From: Butyrivibrio sp.
Lineage (GTDB): Bacteria; Bacillota; Clostridia; Lachnospirales; Lachnospiraceae
NCBI GenBank assembly: GCA_017470505.1
Contig: JAFUYO010000005.1
Span: forward strand, 62,001-126,000
Length of the DNA: 64,000 nucleotides
Direction of reading: 5' to 3'
A program made the translations under genes and the position numbers. Below, piece by piece: positions 380-13,472 of the stretch (positions are counted from its first letter, which is position 1; the number at the start of each line of letters is the position of its first letter). Below the pieces are notes generated by a model, which saw nothing but the letters and a program-made list of their open reading frames with translations, had not been told where the DNA came from and ran no database searches.

Positions 380-1882
380 ATGAGCAGATTTTTACAGATC
401 CATCCGGAAGACAACGTTGTTGTATGCCTCGAGGAACTCAAAAAGGGCGAGAAGATCACCCTCGGGGACGGCAAAGAGATCACGGCAAATGAGGATATTC
501 CCGCCGGCCACAAGATTGCCATAAAGGATATCTCAAAGGATTCAAACATCATCAAGTACGGCTACGCAATCGGCCACGCACTTGAGGATATCACCGAGGG
601 CAGATGGGTTCACACCCACGACATCAAGACCAATCTCGAGGGAATCCTTTCTTATAAATATGAACCGAACACTGACGACATAGGCAAAAAGAAGTCTCAG
701 ATGGGTACCAGAAAGGGCACCTTCAAGGGCTTTGTCAGGAAAAACAAAAAAGTCGGCATCAGAAACGAGGTCTGGATCATTCCTACAGTCGGCTGTGTAA
801 ACAATATTGCGAGAGCTCTCGCAAAAGAGGCAAACAAGTTTGTAAAGGGCAGTGTTGACGAAGTCGTTGCATTTACTCACAACTACGGCTGCTCACAGAC
901 GGGGGATGACCAGGAGCACACAAGGACGATCCTCTCAGACCTCATAAATCATCCGAACGCAGGAGCGGTTCTTGTTTTGGGGCTCGGATGCGAGAACAGC
1001 AATATCGACGTTTTGATGCCCTATATAGGAGAGTACGATCCGGACAGGGTTAAGTTCCTCGTATGCCAGAAGTCTGATGACGAGATGGCTGACGGAACAG
1101 CTCTTTTAAAAGAACTCATAGACGCAGCTGCAGGTGATGAGAGAGAAGACGTAGATCTCTCCAAACTCGTCATCGGCCTTAAGTGCGGCGGATCTGACGG
1201 ATTCTCCGGAATCACTGCAAATCCTCTTGTCGGCAGGATATCCGACAGGATCATAGAGTACGGCGGAACATCAATCCTGACTGAGGTTCCCGAGATGTTC
1301 GGAGCAGAGACCATCCTCATGAACAGATGCAAGGATGAGGCTACCTTCAATGACACGGTGAACATGATAAACGACTTCAAGGACTATTTCACCAAACAGG
1401 GCGAGCCCATCTATGAGAATCCTTCACCCGGAAACAAGGCGGGCGGCATCACGACGCTTGAGGATAAGTCCCTCGGCTGCACGCAGAAGTCCGGCGATTA
1501 CCCTGTTATGAACGTCATGGAGTACGGACAGAGAACAGATACGACAGGATTAAATCTTCTCTGCGCTCCAGGCAACGACCTCTGCGCAGCGACAGCACTT
1601 GCAAGCGCAGGCGCCCAGATAGTTCTCTTCACAACAGGGAGAGGAACACCTTTTGCCTGTCCCGTTCCAACGATGAAGATCGCCAGCAACAACACGATTG
1701 CAAAAAAGAAAGGGAACTGGATAGACTTCTCGGCAGGTCAGATTTTAGAGGGCAGGACCTTCGATGAGCTTACGGACGAACTCTTTGACAAGATAGTAAG
1801 GACGGCTTCAGGTGAAAAGCTTAAGAGCGAGATCGCCGGTTTCCACGATATGGCTATCTGGAAGAGGGGAGTAACGCTGTAA
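380..1882 (+). CDS. uxaA: Altronate dehydratase (UxaA/GarD family)
   Basis: Altronate dehydratase removes water from D-altronate to give 2-keto-3-deoxygluconate in the galacturonate pathway. The 500-residue length is normal for the family. The first ~95 residues form the SAF-type N-terminal domain; the rest is the dehydratase domain, with the conserved HNYGCSQTGDD, LGLGCEN, GLKCGGSDGFSG and TEVPEMFGAE segments whose cysteines fit the family's metal dependence. An AAAGGGG ribosome site precedes the ATG. It is divergent from uxaC and followed by a transporter with the same operator, so it is probably induced by uronates. Galactarate dehydratase is the closest alternative, but the uxaC neighbour favours altronate. 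Confidence 0.93.
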   Translation: MSRFLQIHPEDNVVVCLEELKKGEKITLGDGKEITANEDIPAGHKIAIKDISKDSNIIKYGYAIGHALEDITEGRWVHTHDIKTNLEGILSYKYEPNTDDIGKKKSQMGTRKGTFKGFVRKNKKVGIRNEVWIIPTVGCVNNIARALAKEANKFVKGSVDEVVAFTHNYGCSQTGDDQEHTRTILSDLINHPNAGAVLVLGLGCENSNIDVLMPYIGEYDPDRVKFLVCQKSDDEMADGTALLKELIDAAAGDEREDVDLSKLVIGLKCGGSDGFSGITANPLVGRISDRIIEYGGTSILTEVPEMFGAETILMNRCKDEATFNDTVNMINDFKDYFTKQGEPIYENPSPGNKAGGITTLEDKSLGCTQKSGDYPVMNVMEYGQRTDTTGLNLLCAPGNDLCAATALASAGAQIVLFTTGRGTPFACPVPTMKIASNNTIAKKKGNWIDFSAGQILEGRTFDELTDELFDKIVRTASGEKLKSEIAGFHDMAIWKRGVTL

Positions 1883-2283: not shown

Positions 2284-3957
2284 ATGAAAAAGAAAGTTTT
2301 ATCTTTACTTCTTTCAACAGCAATGGTAGCTTCACTTGCAGCCTGCGGATCATCAACTGATTCCGGAAGCAGCACAGGAAGCGCTGACACACAGACATCC
2401 GGCTCATCAACAACCACTTCTGATGCAGGCGCTGCAGCAGATGCAGGTTCAGCTTCAGCCGGCAGCTATGATCTTACAGATCTTTACATCACTGTTGACG
2501 GAACACTTACAGCAAACGTTGACAACGGACAGGACGCATTCGTAGAGCAGTGGCAGACAGCAGTTGCAGAGAAGCTTGGTCATCCCATCACTCTTCACAT
2601 CAACCAGCCTGAGCACTCAGGATACAAGGATAACGTATCCCAGCTCCTTACAACAGGCGAGCCCGGTGACGGACAGTATCCCGATGCACTCATCATGAGC
2701 GCTACAATGTTCAAGCAGTACCAGAACACAGGTATCCTCTGGAATATGGCTGATGCTTATGCAAACGCCGAGTTCCAGTCAAGGATCACACTTCCTTCAA
2801 TCAACGAGAACATGAAGACACCTGCCGGAGAGCTTTACGGATTTGCTCCTACATACGGCAACGGATGTGTTACATACATCAAGCAGTCATGGCTCGATGC
2901 AGCAGGCCTCAAGGCTGATGATATCAAGACCTTCGATGACTACTACAACATGCTCAAGGCATTCACCAAGGACGGCCAGACTGGTGTTATCGCAGCAGGC
3001 TTTGCAAACATGAAAGAGGCTCCTTACATCAACTACATGCCTGAGTTCTGGCAGGGTGCTTACCCGGCAATCTATCAGAAGGACGGAACATGGATTGACG
3101 GATTCCAGGAGCAGGCTACAATCGATGCTCTTACAAGACTCCAGACAGCATACGCTGATGGCGTTATCGATAAGGATACTGAGGAAGCTACAACAAAGAC
3201 AGCTCGTGAGAAGTGGTTCTCAAACGACCAGACAACTTCCGAGGGTGTATTCACATACTGGGCTGGCACATGGCTTCGTACCCTTACAGACAACCTTGAC
3301 AAGAACGACGTTGACGCAGATCTCGGCGACGACAGACTTGTACAGCTTCCTCCTATCAAGGAGATCAAGGATACATGGGGCGGATACCTCAACAGAGAAG
3401 CTCCTGTATGGGTAATCACAGATGACGGCGACGGAGACGACTCCCGTGAGCAGGCTATCTTCGATGCACTTCTTGAGACAATGCTTGACGGCGACAAGGT
3501 TCAGACACTCTGGACATACGGTGCTGAGGATGTTCACTGGTCAACACACGCTGAGACATTCACAACAAATCCTGATGATCCTGAGAAGAAGAAGGATTAC
3601 GAGTATGCAGAGGGTGAGTTCCACCTTAAGCAGACTCCTAACGATCCTAACTCTGTATGGAAGAAGAACCACCTTGATCCCGTACTTGTAATTGCTCCTC
3701 TTACAAACGGTTTCGTAGACAGCGATCCCCTTGTTGAGGCAGGTAACAAGTTCTTCACATCAAACGCTGTTGATGCACCTCAGTCACCTTCAAATGAGAC
3801 ACTTACAGAGGTTGAGGCTGACCTTACAGTTGATAAGACAACACTCATCAATGAGGTTGTAGCAGGCAAGAAGAATGCAGCAGACGCTGTTGCTGAGTAT
3901 CAGGCTAAGTGGGGCGACACAGTTGCTTCTATCCTTGAAGATCTCAACGCACAGTAA
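2284..3957 (+). CDS. Sugar ABC transporter substrate-binding lipoprotein (YtcQ/LipO-like)
   Basis: This is the extracellular sugar-capturing lipoprotein of a CUT1-type importer. The first 21 residues are a lipoprotein signal with lipobox SLAAC; Cys21 would be lipidated. A Ser/Thr/Gly/Ala-rich linker (about 22-60) precedes the binding domain. The 557-residue size is typical of the large YtcQ/LipO proteins that pair with YteP/LplB and YtcP/LplC permeases, which follow directly. In Bacillus subtilis YteP-YtcP-YtcQ imports rhamnogalacturonan disaccharides. The neighbouring acetylesterase, GH43 and uronate genes make a pectin oligomer the likely substrate; this is inference. Codon use is strongly biased, as in a highly expressed gene. 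A hairpin separates it from the permeases. Confidence 0.88.
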   Translation: MKKKVLSLLLSTAMVASLAACGSSTDSGSSTGSADTQTSGSSTTTSDAGAAADAGSASAGSYDLTDLYITVDGTLTANVDNGQDAFVEQWQTAVAEKLGHPITLHINQPEHSGYKDNVSQLLTTGEPGDGQYPDALIMSATMFKQYQNTGILWNMADAYANAEFQSRITLPSINENMKTPAGELYGFAPTYGNGCVTYIKQSWLDAAGLKADDIKTFDDYYNMLKAFTKDGQTGVIAAGFANMKEAPYINYMPEFWQGAYPAIYQKDGTWIDGFQEQATIDALTRLQTAYADGVIDKDTEEATTKTAREKWFSNDQTTSEGVFTYWAGTWLRTLTDNLDKNDVDADLGDDRLVQLPPIKEIKDTWGGYLNREAPVWVITDDGDGDDSREQAIFDALLETMLDGDKVQTLWTYGAEDVHWSTHAETFTTNPDDPEKKKDYEYAEGEFHLKQTPNDPNSVWKKNHLDPVLVIAPLTNGFVDSDPLVEAGNKFFTSNAVDAPQSPSNETLTEVEADLTVDKTTLINEVVAGKKNAADAVAEYQAKWGDTVASILEDLNAQ

Positions 3958-4091: not shown

Positions 4092-5042
4092 ATGAGCAAA
4101 CAACAAAAGGTTACATCAACAGGCCAGACACTTAATAAAAAGCCGCTTGGAATGCGTATATGGAACCACAGAGGTTTCTATCTGATGTTCTTGCCTGTAT
4201 TTATCTATGTGCTGATAATCTATTATTGGCCTATGCTGGGTGTCAGGTATTCGTTCTATGACTACACCTTAAAGAAAATTGAATTCGTTGGCCTGAAGCA
4301 TTTCACCAGCATGTTCGCTGACAAGGATTTCTGGACGGCCTTCATCAATACACTGCAGCTGTCTATCATCAAGCTGCTGATCACGACCGGTACAGCGGTT
4401 ATTGTTTCCGTATTCATCAATGAAATGGGGAACATGCTTGCAAAGAAGACACTGCAGACAGTTATCTATCTTCCTCACTTCATGTCATGGACAGTTACAG
4501 CAGCTATCTTCACGCTGTTCCTTTCAACATCTTCAACAGGTTTCATCAACGAGACCCTGAAGAGCTGGGGATGGATAAAAGAGAGTATCGACTTCATGCA
4601 TGAGACGACACTCTGGCGACCGGTTTACTACCTGGTTAACATCTGGAAGGAGACAGGTTGGGGAACAGTTATATTCCTCGCAACTCTTTCAGGTATCAAC
4701 CCCGAGATCTATGAGGCTGCCGATATCGACGGTGCATCAAGACTTCAGAAGATCTGGTACGTAACAGTTCCTGAACTTCTTAACACCATCATCATCGTGC
4801 TGATCCTGAACCTGGCTAAGGTTCTTAACCTCTTTGAGTCAGTATTCGTTATGTACAACAACCGTGTATTCTCAGTATCGGACGTTGTATCAACCTACAT
4901 TTACCGCAAGACCTTTATGACAGCTATCCCTAACTACGGATACACGACAGCAGTAGGTCTTTTCAAGTCACTCGTCGGATGTGCTCTGGTTCTTATTTGT
5001 AACTGGGCCAGCAAAAAAGTTCGCGGTCGCGGAATTATTTAA
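4092..5042 (+). CDS. Sugar ABC transporter permease (YteP/LplB-like)
   Basis: This is one of two membrane subunits of the importer. About six hydrophobic segments are visible, the first at roughly residues 30-50. The EAA loop for contact with the ATPase is seen as EAADIDGASRLQKIWYVTVP. The length, 316 residues, and the N-terminal SKQQK...LGMRIWNHRGFYLMFLP stretch fit the YteP/LplB branch of CUT1 permeases, which work with the large lipoproteins. A GGGGCAGG ribosome site lies before the ATG. No ATPase gene is present, so a shared MsmK/UgpC-type ATPase elsewhere probably drives it, as is usual for these systems. Confidence 0.9.
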   Translation: MSKQQKVTSTGQTLNKKPLGMRIWNHRGFYLMFLPVFIYVLIIYYWPMLGVRYSFYDYTLKKIEFVGLKHFTSMFADKDFWTAFINTLQLSIIKLLITTGTAVIVSVFINEMGNMLAKKTLQTVIYLPHFMSWTVTAAIFTLFLSTSSTGFINETLKSWGWIKESIDFMHETTLWRPVYYLVNIWKETGWGTVIFLATLSGINPEIYEAADIDGASRLQKIWYVTVPELLNTIIIVLILNLAKVLNLFESVFVMYNNRVFSVSDVVSTYIYRKTFMTAIPNYGYTTAVGLFKSLVGCALVLICNWASKKVRGRGII

Positions 5043-5056
5043 GGGGGTGGCGAATA

Positions 5057-5923
5057 ATGGCTAAGGCAAAAGAGTTTGCAACAGGTCGTAAGAGAAAGAC
5101 CGATGCATTTGATATTGTTAACTACATAGTATTTATCTTACTTGGACTTATTGTACTGATTCCTATCTGGAAGGTAGTAGTAGACTCCTTCAACGCTGTC
5201 GGCGTTTACAGATTCCAGCTCCTTCCTAATGACTTTACACTTGACGGATATCGTACCATCATCCACACATCCAAGCTGTACCAGCCCTTTGTTAACTCAG
5301 TTATCACAACTATTCTGGGAACCCTGCTTGGACTGGTTATGAGTACACTCGGTGGATATGTTCTTTCACAGTACGAGATGCCCGGCAGAAACCTCATGGC
5401 TTATTTCCTTCTTTTCACCATGATCTTCTCCGGCGGTATGATTCCTGAGTACCTGGTTATGAAACAGCTCCACCTTGTTAACAACATGTGGATCCTTGTT
5501 GTTAAGCATGGTATGAACGTTTACAACCTGGTCCTGATGCGTAACTTCTTCGAGGGTATTCCCGCTTCACTCTTTGAGGCTGCCAAGATCGACGGCTGCT
5601 CACCTATGGGAATCTTCTTCAAGATAGTGCTTCCTCTCTCAAAGGCAGCTCTTGCATCTATCGGACTTATGTTCGCAGTTACTGTATGGAACGACTACTC
5701 AACAGTTCAGATCTACATCACAAACCGTGATCAGGTTAACTTCCAGTACATCCTGAGAGTTATGGTCATGGACGGTGACACGCCGACGACGGCATACAAG
5801 GTATCACAGAGCACACTTTACTACGCAGCAATTGTTTGTGCGATCCTTCCTTTTATGGCTCTGTATCCTTTCCTTCAGAAGTATTTCGTTAAGGGTGTTA
5901 ATGTTGGTGCCGTTAAGGAGTAA
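5057..5923 (+). CDS. Sugar ABC transporter permease (YtcP/LplC-like)
   Basis: This is the second membrane subunit, pairing with the permease 14 bases upstream. About six membrane segments are seen, the first at residues 21-42. The EAA loop reads FEAAKIDGCSPMGIFFKIVLPLSKAA in outline, with the conserved EAAKIDG. The 288-residue length and the GVNVGAVKE end are typical of the YtcP/LplC branch. AAGGGGGTGG before the ATG is a strong ribosome site. The transcript probably ends in part at the hairpin at 5955-5982. Confidence 0.9.
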   Translation: MAKAKEFATGRKRKTDAFDIVNYIVFILLGLIVLIPIWKVVVDSFNAVGVYRFQLLPNDFTLDGYRTIIHTSKLYQPFVNSVITTILGTLLGLVMSTLGGYVLSQYEMPGRNLMAYFLLFTMIFSGGMIPEYLVMKQLHLVNNMWILVVKHGMNVYNLVLMRNFFEGIPASLFEAAKIDGCSPMGIFFKIVLPLSKAALASIGLMFAVTVWNDYSTVQIYITNRDQVNFQYILRVMVMDGDTPTTAYKVSQSTLYYAAIVCAILPFMALYPFLQKYFVKGVNVGAVKE

Positions 5924-5954: not shown

Positions 5955-5989
5955 GCCATCTGTGTCATGTGATGCAGATGGCTGTTTTC
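5955..5989 (+). terminator. Hairpin terminator or attenuator after the importer
   Basis: GCCATCTGTGTC (5955-5966) pairs with the segment ending 5982, giving 12 base pairs with two G-T pairs and an ATGT loop, followed by TGTTTTC. It lies only 63 bases before the esterase start, so some read-through into the hydrolase genes is likely. Confidence 0.65.
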
Positions 5990-6051
5990 ATAATAAGCCC
6001 CAGGAATGGTCCCTTGACTCCGTCCCCAGGGCTCAAGCAGGAGGTAAGAAA

Positions 6052-6774
6052 GTGAGACATATATTTTGGGCGGGAGACTCCACCGTCAAGACCAACAAGT
6101 TTGTTACATATCCCCAGACCGGTATCGGACAGGCGTTTGACAGGTACACCAAGACTGATGTTGTGATCTGCAATCACGCAGAGAACGGCAGGAGTACAAA
6201 GAGCTTTATCGACGAGTCAAGACTTGCTCCCATCTATGATGATATAACCGAGGGGGATTTTCTTTTTATTCAGTTCGGACACAATGACGAGAAAGAGCAG
6301 GATCCTGCGAGGTACACGGATCCGCACGGAGAGTTTATCGGTAACCTAGTCAAGTTTGTGAACGCAGCAAGAAACAAAAAAGCCTATCCCGTGTTCATAA
6401 CGTCCGTTGAGAGAAGACTCTTTGATGAAAACGGGAACTTGAGGCAGTCAGGGCATGAGGAGTATGTAAAGGGGATGAAGGAGGCCGCTGCAAAATTCGA
6501 CGTCCCTGTTGTTGATCTCTACTCGATGAGCCGCGAGTTTTTGCAAAAGACAGGTGATGAGGCGTCAAAGAAGTACTACATGAACCTCGCACCGGGAGAA
6601 GCCTCCTGGGCACCTGAGGGAAAGAATGACAACTCGCACCTTCGCTATGAGGGAGCAATGCTGTACGCAGGGATGATAGCAAAGGGATTGTCAGACCTTG
6701 GCGGAGTATATGCTGATCTCATTGCTGATGACAACCTGCTTTCTGATTCATCAAAGATCGAGGTGAACGGATAA
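6052..6774 (+). CDS. SGNH hydrolase, rhamnogalacturonan acetylesterase-like (RhgT/YesT)
   Basis: It is likely to remove acetyl groups from imported rhamnogalacturonan oligomers in the cytoplasm. The protein starts MRHIFWAGDSTVK and shows the family blocks: GDST (nucleophile Ser), NGRSTKSF, GHND (oxyanion Asn) and the C-terminal NSHL (catalytic His). There is no signal peptide. The GTG at 6052 is chosen because AGGAGGT lies 6 bases upstream (6039-6045); the earlier in-frame ATG at 5962 lies inside the hairpin at 5955-5982 and has no ribosome site. The resulting 240 residues match YesT length. The link to pectin rests on family and neighbours; other O-acetylated oligomers are possible. Confidence 0.85.
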   Translation: MRHIFWAGDSTVKTNKFVTYPQTGIGQAFDRYTKTDVVICNHAENGRSTKSFIDESRLAPIYDDITEGDFLFIQFGHNDEKEQDPARYTDPHGEFIGNLVKFVNAARNKKAYPVFITSVERRLFDENGNLRQSGHEEYVKGMKEAAAKFDVPVVDLYSMSREFLQKTGDEASKKYYMNLAPGEASWAPEGKNDNSHLRYEGAMLYAGMIAKGLSDLGGVYADLIADDNLLSDSSKIEVNG

Positions 6775-6809
6775 CCATTTTTCAGGAGATTTTTTTGGAG
6801 TGTACTATT

Positions 6810-8591
6810 ATGAACAGATACAGTGACAGAGGAGATAAATTCAGAAACCCGATACTGTTTGCGGATTACTCAGACCCGGATGTGATAAGGGTGGGCGATA
6901 CTTATTATATGACGGCGAGCAGCTTTAACTATACGCCGGGGCTTCCCATTCTGGTATCACAAGACCTGGTGAACTGGGAGCTCAAAAATTATGCACTTGA
7001 AAATATAGGGCAGGAGAGATTTAAGATCCCACGCCACTCTGAGGGCGTATGGGCTCCTGCAATCAGGTTCCATGAAGGCATGTTCTATATCTACTACGGA
7101 ATGCCTGACGAGGGCTACTATGTAGTCAGGACAAAAGATCCTCTCGGAAAATGGGAGGAGCCTGTGTGCGTCCTCCCGGGAAAAGGACTTATTGATTCGT
7201 GTCCTATATGGGATGATGACGGAAGAGCCTACATCGTTCACGGCTATGCAAAATCCAGGATCGGCTTTAAGAGCATACTGGGTATATTTGAGATGAGCCC
7301 TGACGGACTCAAGGCAATTTCCGAGGATCACTTTATCTTCAATGGAAACGACCCTGAGCACCCCGCAATTACGATTGAGGGACCCAAGGTTTATAAGAGA
7401 AACGGCTACTACTACATCTGGGCTCCCGCAGGAGGCGTAAGAGAGGGCTATCAGGTGGTACTCAGGAGCCGTGATATACATGGCCCTTACGAGATAAAAA
7501 AGGTCATGGACAAGGGCAGTACTGTCATAAACGGGCCTCACCAGGGCGGACTTGTCGATACAAATAAAGGGGATGAGTGGTTTGTTCATTTCCAGGACAG
7601 AGGTCTGTACGGCAGAATATGTCATCTTCAGCCTGTTACCTGGGATGGGGACTGGCCTGTTGTCAGCGTTAATAAGCATGATGAGGGCTGGGGCGAGCCT
7701 GTATATGAGTTGCAAAAACCCGCAAGCTCAAGGGAAAGCGCAGCTAAAACAGTTGTTATGTCAGGCTCTGACAGTGATGATCTGTCATCCGCAGACATTT
7801 CTGTTTCCGGCTCAAAGTCTGATCCTTTCGATTATCAGGCGCTTTCTACTGATTTATTTGAGGACGGGAAATACAATCTCTCCTGGCAGTGGCTCGGTGA
7901 CCACGAAGATGGCTTTTATGGAAAGGCAGATGGAGAGAGGGGCCTCAGACTCTTTTGCAAAAATCCTTCAGGCGAAAAAGAGCCTGTTATCTGGCGCAGC
8001 AGCAATGTGCTCACGCAGAAGATAGTATATCCCGTTTTTGAAGCGAGGATACGTGCTGACGTATCAGGCCTTTTTGACGGGGACAGAGCGGGAGTCTGCA
8101 TGACGGGCGGACAGTACGTAACAGCATACATCGAGAGAGATAGCGATAAATATATTCTCAAAGTCGCCGAGTCAGAGGGCGGAGACTCAGACAAGAGAGA
8201 AGTCATAAAGTCAGAGACTGACCTGTTTGAACTTTTGAGAGAAGATGAAAGATGTGCAGATTCATCTTCGCATATCCTTAAGAACCTGGAGTTTGTCATG
8301 ACCTTTGACCTTGATGGCAGAGACTTCCCATCAGAGAAGCTCTACTTCCAGGATGTAAAGCATCCTCTCGGCGGCAAAGACCCGAGCCTCAAGATCAGCC
8401 TCGGAGTAACCTTTGATGAGGATGGTGCCGAAGAACACTCCGCTCAAAGCCGCAGAGACCTTGGCATATCCTACACACCCTCAGACCACACCTGGGTCGG
8501 CGCCAAGATCGGAATCTACGCACTCGCCGGAGGTGAAAACAGTTCAAATGGTTACGCAGATTTCAAGGAAGTAATAGTATCAGAACTGTGA
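6810..8591 (+). CDS. Cytoplasmic glycoside hydrolase family 43 (beta-xylosidase/arabinofuranosidase type)
   Basis: GH43 enzymes are inverting five-bladed beta-propeller hydrolases for xylosides, arabinofuranosides or galactans. The propeller covers about residues 10-310. The three catalytic acids are visible: the base Asp in YSDPDVIRVGDTYYM (Asp22), the modulator Asp in LIDSCPIWDDDG and the acid Glu in TIEGPKVYKRNG. The C-terminal ~270 residues look like the lectin-like beta-sandwich found after many GH43 domains. No signal peptide is present, so it acts on imported oligomers. ATG 6810 with GGAG at 6797-6800 is preferred; a TTG at 6795 would add five residues. Exact substrate cannot be read from sequence. 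Confidence 0.88.
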   Translation: MNRYSDRGDKFRNPILFADYSDPDVIRVGDTYYMTASSFNYTPGLPILVSQDLVNWELKNYALENIGQERFKIPRHSEGVWAPAIRFHEGMFYIYYGMPDEGYYVVRTKDPLGKWEEPVCVLPGKGLIDSCPIWDDDGRAYIVHGYAKSRIGFKSILGIFEMSPDGLKAISEDHFIFNGNDPEHPAITIEGPKVYKRNGYYYIWAPAGGVREGYQVVLRSRDIHGPYEIKKVMDKGSTVINGPHQGGLVDTNKGDEWFVHFQDRGLYGRICHLQPVTWDGDWPVVSVNKHDEGWGEPVYELQKPASSRESAAKTVVMSGSDSDDLSSADISVSGSKSDPFDYQALSTDLFEDGKYNLSWQWLGDHEDGFYGKADGERGLRLFCKNPSGEKEPVIWRSSNVLTQKIVYPVFEARIRADVSGLFDGDRAGVCMTGGQYVTAYIERDSDKYILKVAESEGGDSDKREVIKSETDLFELLREDERCADSSSHILKNLEFVMTFDLDGRDFPSEKLYFQDVKHPLGGKDPSLKISLGVTFDEDGAEEHSAQSRRDLGISYTPSDHTWVGAKIGIYALAGGENSSNGYADFKEVIVSEL

Positions 8592-8671: not shown

Positions 8672-10798
8672 ATGTCTGAAATACCAAAGAACCGCCTGAT
8701 GGAGTACATCAAAGAGGGAAATATGTCCAAGGTTAAGTATATCCTCATCGAGGACCCAAGCCTCATTGATGCGGAAACTTTTTTTGCGGTAGCAGAACTT
8801 GGAAATTTCGAGATGCTTAAGTACCTCGTCGAGTACTCGAGGATCAGCTTAAATGAGTACAGTAAAGAGCACGAAAACGTACTTCACTTTGCTGCGAGAT
8901 CGGGGAACCTGATGCTTTTCAGATATCTGGTCGAAAAGTGCGGTATGGACCCGCTTGAAGGCGATATAAATCTTATTACCCCCTGGGATATTATAAGGCA
9001 GCATTTATCTTCTGATGGTATGACAGAGGGCTCGGCAGATAAGAGCGAAACTGGGAAAGAGCCATTCAGGCAGATTGATGAGTACCTCACAAAAAGATAT
9101 GGACACCCCTTTGAAGACTTCTACAGGAACCCGGTAAGGAGCGGCTTTTTTCCCGACCCCTCGATATGCAGGGTTGGAGAAGACTACTACATGGTCAACT
9201 CGTCCTTCATATTCTTTCCGTGCATCCCGATATCTCACTCCAGGGACCTGATCCACTGGGAGATAATCGGTCACGCCATTACAAATCCTGAGTGGGCATA
9301 TCTGGATGAGCTTGAGGGCGGAAGAGGCTACTGGGCGCCGGACATCTCTTACTATGAGGGGATGTTCTATATTACAGCGACCTACAGACTAAATGACAGG
9401 CCGCCGATCTACAGGCGTCAGATGGTTGTAAAGTCGCTGAGGCCTGAGGGCCCTTACTCCAAGCCCGTCTTTATCGACGAGGACGGTATCGATCCCAGCA
9501 TTTTCAATGACGATAACGGAAAGAGATATATGCTCTTAAACCGCGGCGCCAGGATATTTGAGCTTGATAAGAGCGGTACCAGAAAGATATCGGACGCACA
9601 GCTCCTATATTACGGGGATTATAAGAGAGCTCCCGAGGGTCCTCACCTTTTCAAGAAGGACGGCTGTTACTATCTGCTAGAAGCCGAGGGCGGAACGGGG
9701 CCCGGCCACAGGGTTACCATCTCAAGGTCCAAAGAGCTGTTTGGAAATTACGAGCCATGCCCCTACAATCCGATAATGAGACAGTGCGATGAAGATGCTG
9801 CAATCCAGAGATGCGGTCACGGCGATATGGTCGAGACTTCCGACGGGAGATGGTACATGGTCTATCTCTGCGGAAGGATGATAGATGGAAGCTACAGCAT
9901 TTTGGGAAGGGAGACCGCGATCGATCCGGTGACCTGGACTGCTGACGGCTGGCCCATAGTCAACAGCTTAAAGGGTCCTTCCTGCCTGCAGGTTAAGCCA
10001 TTTCCTGAGATGAGCGTTGAGATCTTTTCACAGGGGTCAGGCCAGATGGCGTTCGTCCCCGGCAATATGGTAAGCTCAAAGCCTTCAAAGGAGAGGGAGG
10101 CTGTAGATGTCCTATCGCCCTGCGGTCTTTTCATGGACTACATGACGCCGCGCCCCTTTGAGGAGGGGGCTGTCAGATGCTCAGTAACAGGCTCCGGAAA
10201 TAAAAAAGAGAGGCACTTTGTGATAAGAGGGAGTAAGTTCCCTCTCTCAGACGTTCACTCGAGGAATATCGTTTTAAGGAGGCAGACCTCTTTTAAGTTT
10301 GAGTATTCAGTCACCCTTGAAATTCCCAAAAAAGGCGGGATAACAGCAACTTATGGAAGCACATCTTCTAAAGATGAAGCTTTCCTTAATATGAAAGAGG
10401 GGCAGTGCGCCGGCATAACGGGTTATTACGACGAGAACACCTTCTTTGAATTCGGAGTTATCTGCAAGGACAATTATCTTTATATATATGCAAAAGAGCA
10501 TGTGGGAGACAGCGATAGGCTTACGATATCAGATGAAACTCTTGATTTAAGTGTGAATGAGATAAGGCTTATCATGCGGACGGATTACCTGAAGAGAGAG
10601 CTTTCCTACGCACTTTCTGAGGAAGGTGGCGAAATACCTTTTACTACTCTTCATAACGTCAACTATCTCTGCGATGAGGGACTTAAAAAAGGAAAGCGCT
10701 TCACCGGAGCACTTGTCGGAATGTATGCATTCAGAGGTGCCCTGGATTTATCTGTATCTTTCAGAAATGATATCTATAATGATTTGGGGGAATGCTGA
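8672..10798 (+). CDS. Ankyrin-repeat / GH43 fusion protein
   Basis: A 708-residue protein with two parts. Residues ~1-150 are helical and ankyrin-like: FFAVAELGNFEMLKYLVEY (about 37-55) and VLHFAARSGNLMLFRYLVEK (about 70-89) follow the ankyrin pattern. From ~152 a GH43 propeller begins, with the catalytic base in FFPDPSICRVGEDYYM (Asp162), the modulator Asp in GIDPSIFNDDNG and the acid Glu in APEGPHLFKKDG, so it should be active. The C-terminus is again a beta-sandwich. No signal peptide. It has its own GAAGGAG ribosome site and follows the first GH43 by 80 bases. Ankyrin modules bind proteins, so docking to a partner is possible but is inference. Confidence 0.85.
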   Translation: MSEIPKNRLMEYIKEGNMSKVKYILIEDPSLIDAETFFAVAELGNFEMLKYLVEYSRISLNEYSKEHENVLHFAARSGNLMLFRYLVEKCGMDPLEGDINLITPWDIIRQHLSSDGMTEGSADKSETGKEPFRQIDEYLTKRYGHPFEDFYRNPVRSGFFPDPSICRVGEDYYMVNSSFIFFPCIPISHSRDLIHWEIIGHAITNPEWAYLDELEGGRGYWAPDISYYEGMFYITATYRLNDRPPIYRRQMVVKSLRPEGPYSKPVFIDEDGIDPSIFNDDNGKRYMLLNRGARIFELDKSGTRKISDAQLLYYGDYKRAPEGPHLFKKDGCYYLLEAEGGTGPGHRVTISRSKELFGNYEPCPYNPIMRQCDEDAAIQRCGHGDMVETSDGRWYMVYLCGRMIDGSYSILGRETAIDPVTWTADGWPIVNSLKGPSCLQVKPFPEMSVEIFSQGSGQMAFVPGNMVSSKPSKEREAVDVLSPCGLFMDYMTPRPFEEGAVRCSVTGSGNKKERHFVIRGSKFPLSDVHSRNIVLRRQTSFKFEYSVTLEIPKKGGITATYGSTSSKDEAFLNMKEGQCAGITGYYDENTFFEFGVICKDNYLYIYAKEHVGDSDRLTISDETLDLSVNEIRLIMRTDYLKRELSYALSEEGGEIPFTTLHNVNYLCDEGLKKGKRFTGALVGMYAFRGALDLSVSFRNDIYNDLGEC

Positions 10799-10824: not shown

Positions 10825-12633
10825 ATGATAATGCGCTATGACAAAGTGCAGAAATTGGGGAAAGCCATGAAACTTGATACGGATGTTTATTTTGAGAGCT
10901 TTGAAAAGTACAAAGGAAATCCTCTGATGATCCTGTTAGGATTCTACAAGGGGATGTACTCAAACTTTTTCTGGTCGACATTCTTCTATATTATCAAGCA
11001 CTCGCCGGTATGGATACTGCCAATTGTGACCGCGAGCATCATTAACAACGTAACTGAAAATAACCCCGATGTTGTTGCAATCATTGCCTTCGATGTGGGG
11101 CTGATGATATTCCTGCTGATACTGAACGTGCCGATGAACTATCTTCACATCCACTTCAGGAGCAAGGCGGTCAGGAAGGTTGAGGCGGGGCTCAGAAGTG
11201 CGCTGGTTCACAAGATACAGGTCATGTCCATACCGCACTTAAAGGACATGCTCTCAGGGCGGCTTCAGTCCAAGATAATAAGGGATGTTGAGGCGGTTGA
11301 GACGCTATCGGACCAGCTCTTTGTGTCTCTTATCAACATCGCGATAAACATTGTTGTTGCGCTATTTGTGACAGTACAAAGGAGTACGATAGTATTTCTT
11401 TTCTTTCTTCTGACGGTTCCCCTTGCGGCCTTTCTGGTGGTTGCCTTCAAGAAGCCGATCAAAAAGCACAATCAGAAGTTCAGAAAAGAGATGGAGGAGA
11501 CAAGCGCCAGAGTAACCGAGATGGTGCAGCTGGTTCCTGTTACAAGGGCGCACGGCCTCGGAGATGAGGAGATAGTCAGGATGGATACACAGGTTGACCT
11601 CATCGCACAGGCGGGGTACTCGCTCGATATCATCCAGGGCAATTTTGGCGCTGTCAGCTGGGCATTTTTCCAGATAGCCCAGGTTCTGTGCCTTGCATTT
11701 ACTTCGATCCTCGCTGTAAACTCCCGCGTCCAGGTGGGCGACGTCGTCCTGTATCAGAGCTATTTTACGACGATAGTGGGGCAGGTATCTTCGCTCCTAA
11801 CGCTCCTTCCGATAATCTCCAAGGGCCTTGAGTCCGTGTCGAGTATCGGGGAGATACTCCAGTTTGAGTACATAGAGGACAGCGCATCCAAAGAGGATAT
11901 CGGAAAGATCACGGGACAGTACAGCTTTGAGAATGTGTGCTATTCCTACCCTGACACCAAAGAGGATATACTCAACGATCTTACTTTTGATGTAAAGAGC
12001 GGTGAGACCATCGCCTTTGTTGGAGAGTCGGGAGCCGGAAAGTCAACCATAATGAACCTGCTACTCGGTTTTGGATTTCCGCAGTCAGGTGTTCTTAAGA
12101 TCGATGGAAAAGACATAACCCAAATTAATCTAAAGAGCTACCGTAAGCAGCTTGCCGTTGTGCCCCAGAACACGATTCTCTTTTCCGGGAGCATTAGGGA
12201 CAACATCCTCTACGGAACGGGCAATGTCTCTGAGGAAAAGCTAAAGAGGGTTATCGATGAGTCGGGCCTAAAAGGCGTCATCGAAAAGTTGCCGGATGGA
12301 CTTGACACAGTTGTGGGAGAGCACGGAGATAAATTATCGGGCGGTCAGAAGCAGAGAATATCGATCGCGAGGGCCCTCATAAGAGACCCAAAAGTTATCC
12401 TCCTTGATGAGGCCACATCAGCCCTCGATGCTCTTTCAGAAAAAGAGGTGACCTACGCCCTCGAGAACATGTCGCAGAAGTGCACGACCTTCATCGTCGC
12501 CCACAGACTTGCGACAATAGAGAAGGCGGACAGGATAATCGTCGTTGATGACGGCAGGATTAAAGAGAGCGGAAGCTACAAGGAGCTTATGGATAAAAAA
12601 GGTATTTTTTACAGAATGGAGATGACGAGATGA
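10825..12633 (+). CDS. Exporter-type ABC half-transporter (membrane and ATPase domains fused)
   Basis: This is a single-chain half-transporter that would act as a homodimer. Residues ~45-330 hold six membrane helices; ~365-600 hold the ATPase, with Walker A GESGAGKST, signature LSGGQKQR, Walker B VILLDEATSALD and the switch His in IVAHRL. The arrangement is that of MsbA/LmrA-like exporters, not of sugar importers. It lies between the ankyrin-GH43 gene and a sugar isomerase whose start overlaps its stop by four bases, so a role linked to the sugar locus is possible, but the substrate is unknown. ATG 10825 is preferred because AGGG lies 5 bases upstream; ATG 10831 is an alternative. Confidence 0.9.
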   Translation: MIMRYDKVQKLGKAMKLDTDVYFESFEKYKGNPLMILLGFYKGMYSNFFWSTFFYIIKHSPVWILPIVTASIINNVTENNPDVVAIIAFDVGLMIFLLILNVPMNYLHIHFRSKAVRKVEAGLRSALVHKIQVMSIPHLKDMLSGRLQSKIIRDVEAVETLSDQLFVSLINIAINIVVALFVTVQRSTIVFLFFLLTVPLAAFLVVAFKKPIKKHNQKFRKEMEETSARVTEMVQLVPVTRAHGLGDEEIVRMDTQVDLIAQAGYSLDIIQGNFGAVSWAFFQIAQVLCLAFTSILAVNSRVQVGDVVLYQSYFTTIVGQVSSLLTLLPIISKGLESVSSIGEILQFEYIEDSASKEDIGKITGQYSFENVCYSYPDTKEDILNDLTFDVKSGETIAFVGESGAGKSTIMNLLLGFGFPQSGVLKIDGKDITQINLKSYRKQLAVVPQNTILFSGSIRDNILYGTGNVSEEKLKRVIDESGLKGVIEKLPDGLDTVVGEHGDKLSGGQKQRISIARALIRDPKVILLDEATSALDALSEKEVTYALENMSQKCTTFIVAHRLATIEKADRIIVVDDGRIKESGSYKELMDKKGIFYRMEMTR

Positions 12634-13472
12634 TGCAGATTGGAATCAGATTTCACGACACAAAACAGCTGCCATTTGAGGAGAGGCTGACCGAGATCAG
12701 GAACCAGGGATTTTCCTGTGTTCATATAGCTCTCTCAAAGGTTCCCGGATTTACCGCTGACACGGACGCGCTAAATCCCGGTTATGCCATGTACCTGAAA
12801 AATGCCTTCAGAAAGGCAGACCTCGATGTGGCTGTCCTTGGGTGCTATTTAAACCTTGCAAACCCAAACCCCGAGTCACTTAAAAAAATCCAGGACAAGT
12901 ACTACGCACACCTTAGGTTTGCTTCTGTCCTTGGCTGCGGGATGGTTGGCACCGAGACAGGTGCTCCAAATGAGGAGTACAGTTATGACAAACAGGCCTG
13001 CCACTCGAAGGAGGCACTTGAGACTTTTATAAAGAACCTGACACCTGTAGTTAAGTGCGCGGAGAAGATGGGAGTCATCATGGCGATAGAGCCGGTATAC
13101 AGGCATATTGTCTACGACGCAAAGAGGGCAAGAGAGGTGCTCGACAGGATTGAGTCCCCCAATCTTCAGATAATCTTTGATCCGGTTAATCTCTTGTGGA
13201 CAGACAACTTTGATCAGAGAAATGAAGTGATCGATGAGGCGATAGACCTTCTTGGAAGAGACATTGCCATGATCCATCTAAAGGACGCTGTGCCTGAAGA
13301 AGACAGGATAAAGAGCGTCGGCTGCGGCTTTGGTCAGATGAACTACACAAACATCATAAGGTTTGCCCTTGAGAAAAAGCCGTACATCCACGCGACACTT
13401 GAGGACACAAAGCCTGAAACTGCGGCTGCCTCCAAAAAGTGCATAGAGGACGTGATCGCCACGCTCTCATAA
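12630..13472 (+). CDS. Sugar phosphate isomerase/epimerase (xylose-isomerase-like TIM barrel)
   Basis: A 280-residue TIM-barrel protein of the AP-endonuclease-2/xylose-isomerase-like superfamily. Metal-ligand positions typical of the family are visible: Glu in MAIEPVYRH, Asp/Asn in IIFDPVNLLW, His and Asp in MIHLKDA and Glu in ATLEDT. Members epimerise or isomerise keto-sugars and inositols; the substrate here cannot be named, although the uronate/pectin context suggests a sugar acid or ketose. The ATGA overlap with the ABC gene indicates translational coupling. Its stop is only three bases from the stop of the convergent tmcAL gene, and no terminator fits between them. Confidence 0.8.
   Translation: MMQIGIRFHDTKQLPFEERLTEIRNQGFSCVHIALSKVPGFTADTDALNPGYAMYLKNAFRKADLDVAVLGCYLNLANPNPESLKKIQDKYYAHLRFASVLGCGMVGTETGAPNEEYSYDKQACHSKEALETFIKNLTPVVKCAEKMGVIMAIEPVYRHIVYDAKRAREVLDRIESPNLQIIFDPVNLLWTDNFDQRNEVIDEAIDLLGRDIAMIHLKDAVPEEDRIKSVGCGFGQMNYTNIIRFALEKKPYIHATLEDTKPETAAASKKCIEDVIATLS

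Follow-up and report, generated by a model that had tools for sequence, protein, structure and literature searches.

Genomic context of the ankyrin-GH43 enzyme

The window analyzed here, a 64,000-nucleotide stretch of a Butyrivibrio sp. genome (contig JAFUYO010000005.1, positions 62,001 to 126,000), encodes a protein in which an ankyrin module precedes a GH43 propeller and a C-terminal GH43_C2 domain (Table 1). An AAGGAG sequence lies 8 bases 5' of its ATG. The gene lies in a cassette whose order is repeated in many genomes of the genus and comprises an altronate dehydratase, an importer binding protein, two permeases, a GDSL esterase, a second GH43 enzyme (the candidate partner, hereafter PART) and the ankyrin-GH43 enzyme, often followed on the 3' side by an ABC half-transporter and then a TIM-barrel protein. 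The binding protein holds a conserved place in this order and gave no Pfam match above cut-off.

Table 1 Genes, domains and predicted catalytic residues of the locus (coordinates are window positions).
Feature	Coordinates	Strand	Basis
Altronate dehydratase (UxaA type)	380–1882	+	Pfam GD_AH_C 341 bits, GD_AH_second, SAF
Lipoprotein-type substrate-binding protein of importer	2284–3957	+	LAAC motif and signal read from sequence; hydrophobic N-terminus
Two sugar-ABC permeases	4092–5923 (4092–5042, 5057–5923)	+	Conserved clusters; named by sequence character
GDSL esterase, predicted cytosolic	5962–6774	+	Pfam Lipase_GDSL_2; NCBIfam PaeY match far under cut-off
PART, second GH43 with GH43_C2, candidate partner	6795–8591	+	Pfam; first ATG at codon 6
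Ankyrin-GH43 enzyme	8672–10798	+	ORF call; 708 aa, ATG start
Ankyrin domain, residues 1–147, about four repeats	8672–9112	+	Pfam Ank_2/Ank_4, alignments, lengths
Repeats R1 (~6–37), R2 (38–69), R3 (70–98), R4 (99–147, with loop insertion)		+	Borders by eye
GH43 catalytic propeller, residues 151–428	9122–9955	+	Pfam PF04616 264 bits; 6ms3 E 3.5e-118
D162, predicted general base	9155–9157	+	Aligns with PDPS of 6ms3; invariant 13/13
D274, predicted pKa-modulating acid	9491–9493	+	Aligns with GIDPS of 6ms3; invariant 13/13
E322, predicted general acid	9635–9637	+	Aligns with EGPH of 6ms3; invariant 13/13
GH43_C2 concanavalin-like domain, matched part residues 571–688	10382–10735	+	Pfam PF17851 59.3 bits (cut-off 22.7)
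ABC half-transporter (ABC_membrane + ABC_tran)	10825–12633	+	Pfam; downstream cassette member
Xylose-isomerase-like TIM barrel	12630–13472	+	Pfam AP_endonuc_2; downstream cassette member

Glucuronate isomerase is another frequent neighbor of the cassette, and in loci of other genera a GH28, a GH88-family (GH105-like) hydrolase or a pectinesterase adjoins (Pfam, one representative each). These neighbors point to imported pectin oligosaccharides as the substrate, and the cassette probably serves their uptake and cytosolic breakdown. The ankyrin-GH43 enzyme, PART and the GDSL esterase are all devoid of a hydrophobic N-terminus, in contrast to the upstream binding protein, which fits the cytoplasmic location proposed in the first-pass annotation of the window. 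Most GH43 enzymes of Butyrivibrio, along with the pectin-related GH28, GH88 and GH105 enzymes, are placed inside the cell by two earlier Butyrivibrio studies (PMC2914790, PMC6912079), and a cytosolic oligosaccharide-degrading proteome is described in a third (PMC5217386); the term "ankyrin" does not occur in the main texts of these three papers.

Several features of the neighborhood vary or stand apart. The ABC half-transporter is of the exporter type, yet frequent in a cassette for sugar uptake. In two loci (L253 in genome G075 and L159 in G010) the cassette stretch is present, but PART and the ABC gene have no ankyrin-GH43 gene between them; that of G075 lies elsewhere in the genome (L140), and the ankyrin profile found none in G010. 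Downstream of the cassette, a gene of ~700 aa on the opposite strand (cluster 8, e.g. L136:12838-14949) is conserved in 25 loci, its representative having no Pfam match at E ≤ 1e-5. In seven loci (L105, L109, L110, L111, L113, L115 and L120), permease A is lengthened at its N-terminus by a zinc ribbon plus a membrane segment, giving ~480–537 aa compared to ~318, and PART is missing from the fetched stretch of all seven. The extension was considered as a docking site in loci devoid of PART and set aside: it is real, but nothing was found linking it to the ankyrin module.

Architecture of the ankyrin module and the catalytic part

Two ankyrin-like units had been noted in the first ~150 residues at first pass, with a profile-HMM search as the proposed check. 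Two ankyrin families scored above threshold, Ank_2 over residues 9–94 (34.6 bits, cut-off 27.3) and Ank_4 over residues 39–87 (28.8 bits, cut-off 22.7), which upholds membership of the ankyrin repeat family; the number of repeats has to be raised from two to about four. Scores for Ank_3 (22.2, cut-off 22.3), Ank and Ank_5 fell below the Pfam cut-offs. Solved ankyrin proteins in the PDB were matched by residues 1–153 alone (best whole-sequence E 8.6e-18), and a 13-row profile of the ankyrin region had matches to 217 different sequences in the PDB (E ≤ 0.001). At the same threshold, Ank_2 was found in all 15 members of set A7, and the enzyme is the sole Ank_2 match in the host genome (84% complete). 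Five of seven further ankyrin-bearing proteins pass a Pfam cut-off, with L308 and L129 falling below.

The N-terminal unit R1 is weaker than the others and in the alignment was variable and absent from some relatives. R4 of the window protein contains a loop insertion of ~19 aa, so that the segment I107-Y138 spans 32 residues compared to 13 in 42 of 78 homologs; among all 78 it ranges from 10 to 109 residues. The joint Y138-Y151, connecting the last ankyrin helix to the GH43 part, is in contrast nearly constant, with 14 residues in 75/78 homologs and 13 in 3/78. The fixed length of this joint suggests that the module is mounted rigidly and is no flexible docking arm; it is likely to be attached to the GH43 part in fixed geometry, not via a flexible tether. 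Its repeat signature is shared with eukaryotic ankyrin scaffolds such as espin and ankyrin-1; these are long scaffolds, whereas the window protein carries three to four repeats on a bacterial hydrolase.

The first-pass description of a GH43 propeller retaining all three catalytic acids was confirmed by the strong PF04616 match and by D162, D274 and E322, which fall on the motifs of 6ms3, were invariant in all 13 aligned homologs, and which we take to fill the usual GH43 roles of general base, pKa-modulating acid and general acid, respectively. Residues 148–443 have their closest solved relative in 6ms2/6ms3 (PDB, "Glycoside Hydrolase Family 43"; E ~1e-118), with which the acid motifs are shared; that protein differs in being a 538-residue chain with no ankyrin match, the similarity starting at the GH43 part. 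An NCBIfam naming as arabinan endo-1,5-alpha-L-arabinosidase was dropped as the scores (27.5 vs 800 and 24.9 vs 480) were far under the equivalog cut-offs. The enzyme is predicted to be a cytosolic exo-type GH43 resembling xylosidases/arabinofuranosidases. Members of the ankyrin-bearing clade have residues of their own beside the WAPD motif (G216, G217 and R218, vs D, S and H) and in the GH43_C2 sandwich (D587, E588 and F677), indicating that the fusion accompanied a change in the enzyme and that the ankyrin module may belong to a remodeled enzyme.

Distribution of the fusion

How often the fusion occurs, a question raised at first pass, was answered by draws of genomes at several taxonomic ranks. 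Within the genus, the ankyrin profile matched 37 of 79 genomes, 36 of them through an ankyrin-GH43 gene (33 strong and 3 divergent, the latter in G061, G062 and G102, with the G062 copy broken); the match in G073 was weak and confined to a frame of 167 residues. The family draw yielded 31 matching genomes out of 397, with ankyrin-GH43 in 30, and G402 holds a 300-residue ORF that matches the ankyrin profile and is free of GH43. In the order draw (246 genomes), matches including the ankyrin part occurred in families f2, f8, f11 and f22 besides f1. In the phylum draw (299 genomes), 11 genomes besides that of the window had GH43 matches of this kind, none of which begins within the ankyrin part (before model position 120). 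The viral contigs searched contained no relative. Outside the order according to NCBI naming, a 637-residue copy with an Ank_2 score of 49.7 bits is encoded by Monoglobus pectinilyticus (Monoglobales), annotated merely as "family 43 glycosylhydrolase" with no mention of ankyrin.

A free-standing ankyrin gene (L133) was considered as proof of an adaptor and rejected because of a small frame disruption relative to the near-identical intact L134; by this comparison, either the gene broke recently or its sequence contains an error.

Origin and selective constraint

In a bootstrap tree of 57 rows, picked by hand and excluding L103, L241, L236, L311, L133 and L312 as well as many near-copies and part of the outgroups, the ankyrin-bearing GH43s formed a single clade with support of 100/99. 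Ankyrin is present in 37 of the 38 rows of this clade, and its sister clade is ankyrin-less. Two changes of the ankyrin trait are needed in this tree, interpreted as one gain and one loss. Five changes appeared in a fuller tree of 93 rows, built by a quick method and with long branches flagged, in which the bare rows within the ankyrin clade were L037 (on a long branch there), the broken L133, the contig fragment L241 and L236. The last, a divergent partial gene on a very long branch, possibly represents a second loss or decay of ankyrin. Judging from the tree topology, the ankyrin module is a single later addition to one of the two GH43 enzymes. The ankyrin-less sister clade (e.g. L222-L235, L034 and L313-L316) consists of GH43s of the same profile that differ in residues close to WAPD and within the sandwich, and PART adjoins in just 1 of the 14 loci L222-L235 (L228).

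The first-pass annotation had allowed for the N-terminal part being a poorly conserved extension absent from orthologs. This can be set aside, as the part is present in orthologs and has a median dN/dS of 0.11 (15 pairs with a value), compared to medians of 0.034 (17 pairs) in the propeller and 0.16 (19 pairs) in the sandwich; the values derive from 25 non-overlapping close pairs, of which saturated or zero-dS pairs gave none, and are rough as several dS exceeded 1. By this measure the ankyrin part is under purifying selection. The positions conserved across the clade are, in our own judgement, chiefly ordinary positions of the ankyrin fold, the exceptions clustering around E54-S59.

Association with the second GH43 enzyme

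Docking of the ankyrin module onto a partner, with the other GH43, the ABC protein or a regulator as candidates, had been proposed at first pass. PART emerged as the best-supported of these in the sequence comparisons, while the ABC half-transporter and regulators were less consistent neighbors. Among 64 ankyrin-GH43 genes, 38 had PART immediately upstream in the same orientation (including the degenerate L102 and the broken fusion L122) and 4 were fused to it, giving 42/64 upstream or fused; PART was near in 3 and absent from the fetched stretch in 17, and 2 of the ankyrin-GH43 genes lie at contig edges. The gap to the ankyrin-GH43 gene was between -59 and 127 bp for 36 of the 38 adjacent genes (median 18), and exactly -4 in seven. 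Adjacency is rarer among 15 further genes, 14 of which are from other families of the order: 3 are immediately preceded by PART, and for 12 no PART was seen in the fetched stretch.

Four intact single proteins (L119, L121, L123 and L124) combine PART, ankyrin and GH43, with the ankyrin module between the two enzymes (Pfam on L119 and L124), and L122 is a broken fusion of the same kind. Parsimony requires three changes for these fusions, of which well-supported branches force just one. As judged by eye, PART stands in place of repeat 1 in three of these proteins (L119, L123 and L124), its last part being joined to repeat 2 by a short linker. The reverse situation is seen in L037, a direct GH43-PART fusion devoid of ankyrin whose GH43 falls within the ankyrin clade, at a fork shared with L126 (support 100/99); on the strength of this placement it is one clear ankyrin loss. 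Ankyrin-less PART-GH43 fusions of 1100 residues also exist in the sister clade (the near-identical L035 and L036); these two share their preceding genes (clusters c37, c36 and c35), and their neighborhood differs from the pectin cassette.

In the 397-genome draw, using E ≤ 1e-120 as the threshold for presence, PART was found in 27 of the 30 genomes with ankyrin-GH43 and in 23 of the 367 others (Fisher p 7e-25, kinship ignored). It was likewise present in all 11 genomes holding solely an ankyrin-less sister-clade GH43. When PART was missing from the fetched stretch (17 genomes), a strong PART was encoded elsewhere in 15, G354 and G378 being the exceptions. One of the 15 is G101, where both genes lie near contig ends and are perhaps true neighbors. 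Twelve of these 15 distant PARTs belong to a different PART clade from those of the cassette, the exceptions being G446, G075 and G101. At the order level, PART was found in 13/15 genomes, adjacent in two, and was lacking in G652 and G617; in one order-level genome (G685) the ankyrin part itself is cut by a contig end. A PART-like GH43 is also carried by Monoglobus. PART and ankyrin-GH43 are thus linked by context, fusion and co-occurrence, more weakly outside the family (3/15 adjacent), and the two GH43s clearly belong together. The best solved match of PART is 6mly (PDB, "Bifunctional GH43-CE protein"), in which a GH43 and an esterase share one chain, whereas the GDSL esterase, PART and ankyrin-GH43 of the window are encoded by separate genes.

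The ankyrin module was, in addition, found to be kept and constrained in loci other than those with a cassette PART beside it. The ratio of ankyrin dN to GH43 dN had a median of 2.6 in the absence of an adjacent PART (7 pairs) vs 4.2 with one (10 pairs; p 0.055, and 0.10 and 0.014 under other pair choices), so that constraint is not relaxed there, the opposite of what a contact made only with the cassette PART would predict. The 11/11 co-occurrence in genomes with solely the ankyrin-less GH43 also shows that PART and a GH43 can pair with no ankyrin module. On both grounds, PART as a strictly required partner was rejected as a simple rule.

Possible roles of the ankyrin module

The fusions with ankyrin in the middle and its loss in a direct fusion suggest that the module brings the two enzymes together. 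The four-repeat ankyrin domain, N-terminal to the GH43 propeller and fixed in its geometry relative to it, could act as a rigid coupling surface keeping the enzyme next to PART, and the coupled pair would then trim the same short pectin oligosaccharide together. That PART and ankyrin-GH43 cooperate is very probable. That the ankyrin module couples the enzymes as a rigid surface is tentatively proposed, at somewhat less than even chances, and the same caution applies to its surface forming a contact with PART. The fuller picture, in which a dedicated ankyrin coupling piece between two cytosolic glycosidases creates a two-enzyme trimming unit, present as a single PART-ankyrin-GH43 polypeptide in some Lachnospiraceae and replaced by a direct enzyme-enzyme fusion in one lineage, is more doubtful.

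An intrinsic role, where the ankyrin module packs on its own propeller or on a second copy of the enzyme (a homo-oligomer) and shapes substrate access or stability with no binding of PART, is nearly as likely as the coupling. It is favored by the joint of 13–14 residues in 78/78 homologs, by the retention of ankyrin in 37 of the 38 clade rows of the 57-row tree whatever the neighbors, by the unrelaxed constraint where PART is distant, and by the clade's own residues near WAPD and in the sandwich; the PART fusions built around ankyrin and its clear loss in a direct PART fusion are left unexplained. The tentative standing of the coupling relative to this intrinsic role follows from the pairing that occurs in the absence of ankyrin, the ankyrin that occurs with no adjacent PART, the constraint, the prevalence of ordinary fold positions and the clade-specific residues.

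Docking onto another protein, be it the importer, the GDSL esterase, the ABC half-transporter or a regulator, appears improbable. The importer and GDSL esterase genes are frequent neighbors and the ABC half-transporter gene is found in 36 of 81 clustered loci, but among loci from families f2, f8 and f11 such genes were seen only in L299, which has importer genes, and in L309, which has a short permease-like ORF, and none adjoins the Monoglobus pectinilyticus gene. The variability of repeat 1, missing in some relatives, and the 10 to 109 residues of I107-Y138 through the repeat 4 loop would suit a near-neutral leftover of a fusion event, free of any specific role; this is very unlikely given the median dN/dS of 0.11 in 15 pairs, a selection result that already disfavors it, and the retention of the module by several families after a single origin.

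Scaffolded glycosidase complexes are known extracellularly in the form of cellulosomes, and intracellular oligosaccharide breakdown is usually pictured as the work of free enzymes; if the coupling is true, the two GH43s would form a miniature scaffolded complex inside the cell. Ankyrin-assisted oligomerization has been proposed for glutaminase, where an ankyrin part on an enzyme acting on small molecules would build assemblies; that case differs in the type of enzyme and in having ankyrin at the C-terminus. In the open-licence literature searched, no paper appeared to concern an ankyrin-GH43 fusion, and searches there for the 6ms2/6ms3 enzyme found nothing. With its single acquisition and its conservation, the natural fusions of three parts and the one loss in a directly fused protein, the ankyrin module of this GH43 lineage offers a concrete test of whether protein contacts organize the breakdown of glycans in the cytosol of gut and rumen Clostridia, for which Monoglobus pectinilyticus provides a named example in a pectin degrader. 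Two sequences labelled as plasmids of this species (NZ_OY725742 and NZ_OY725739) carry the housekeeping genes lysA, era, recO, ftsZ and ftsK and look like pieces of the chromosome.
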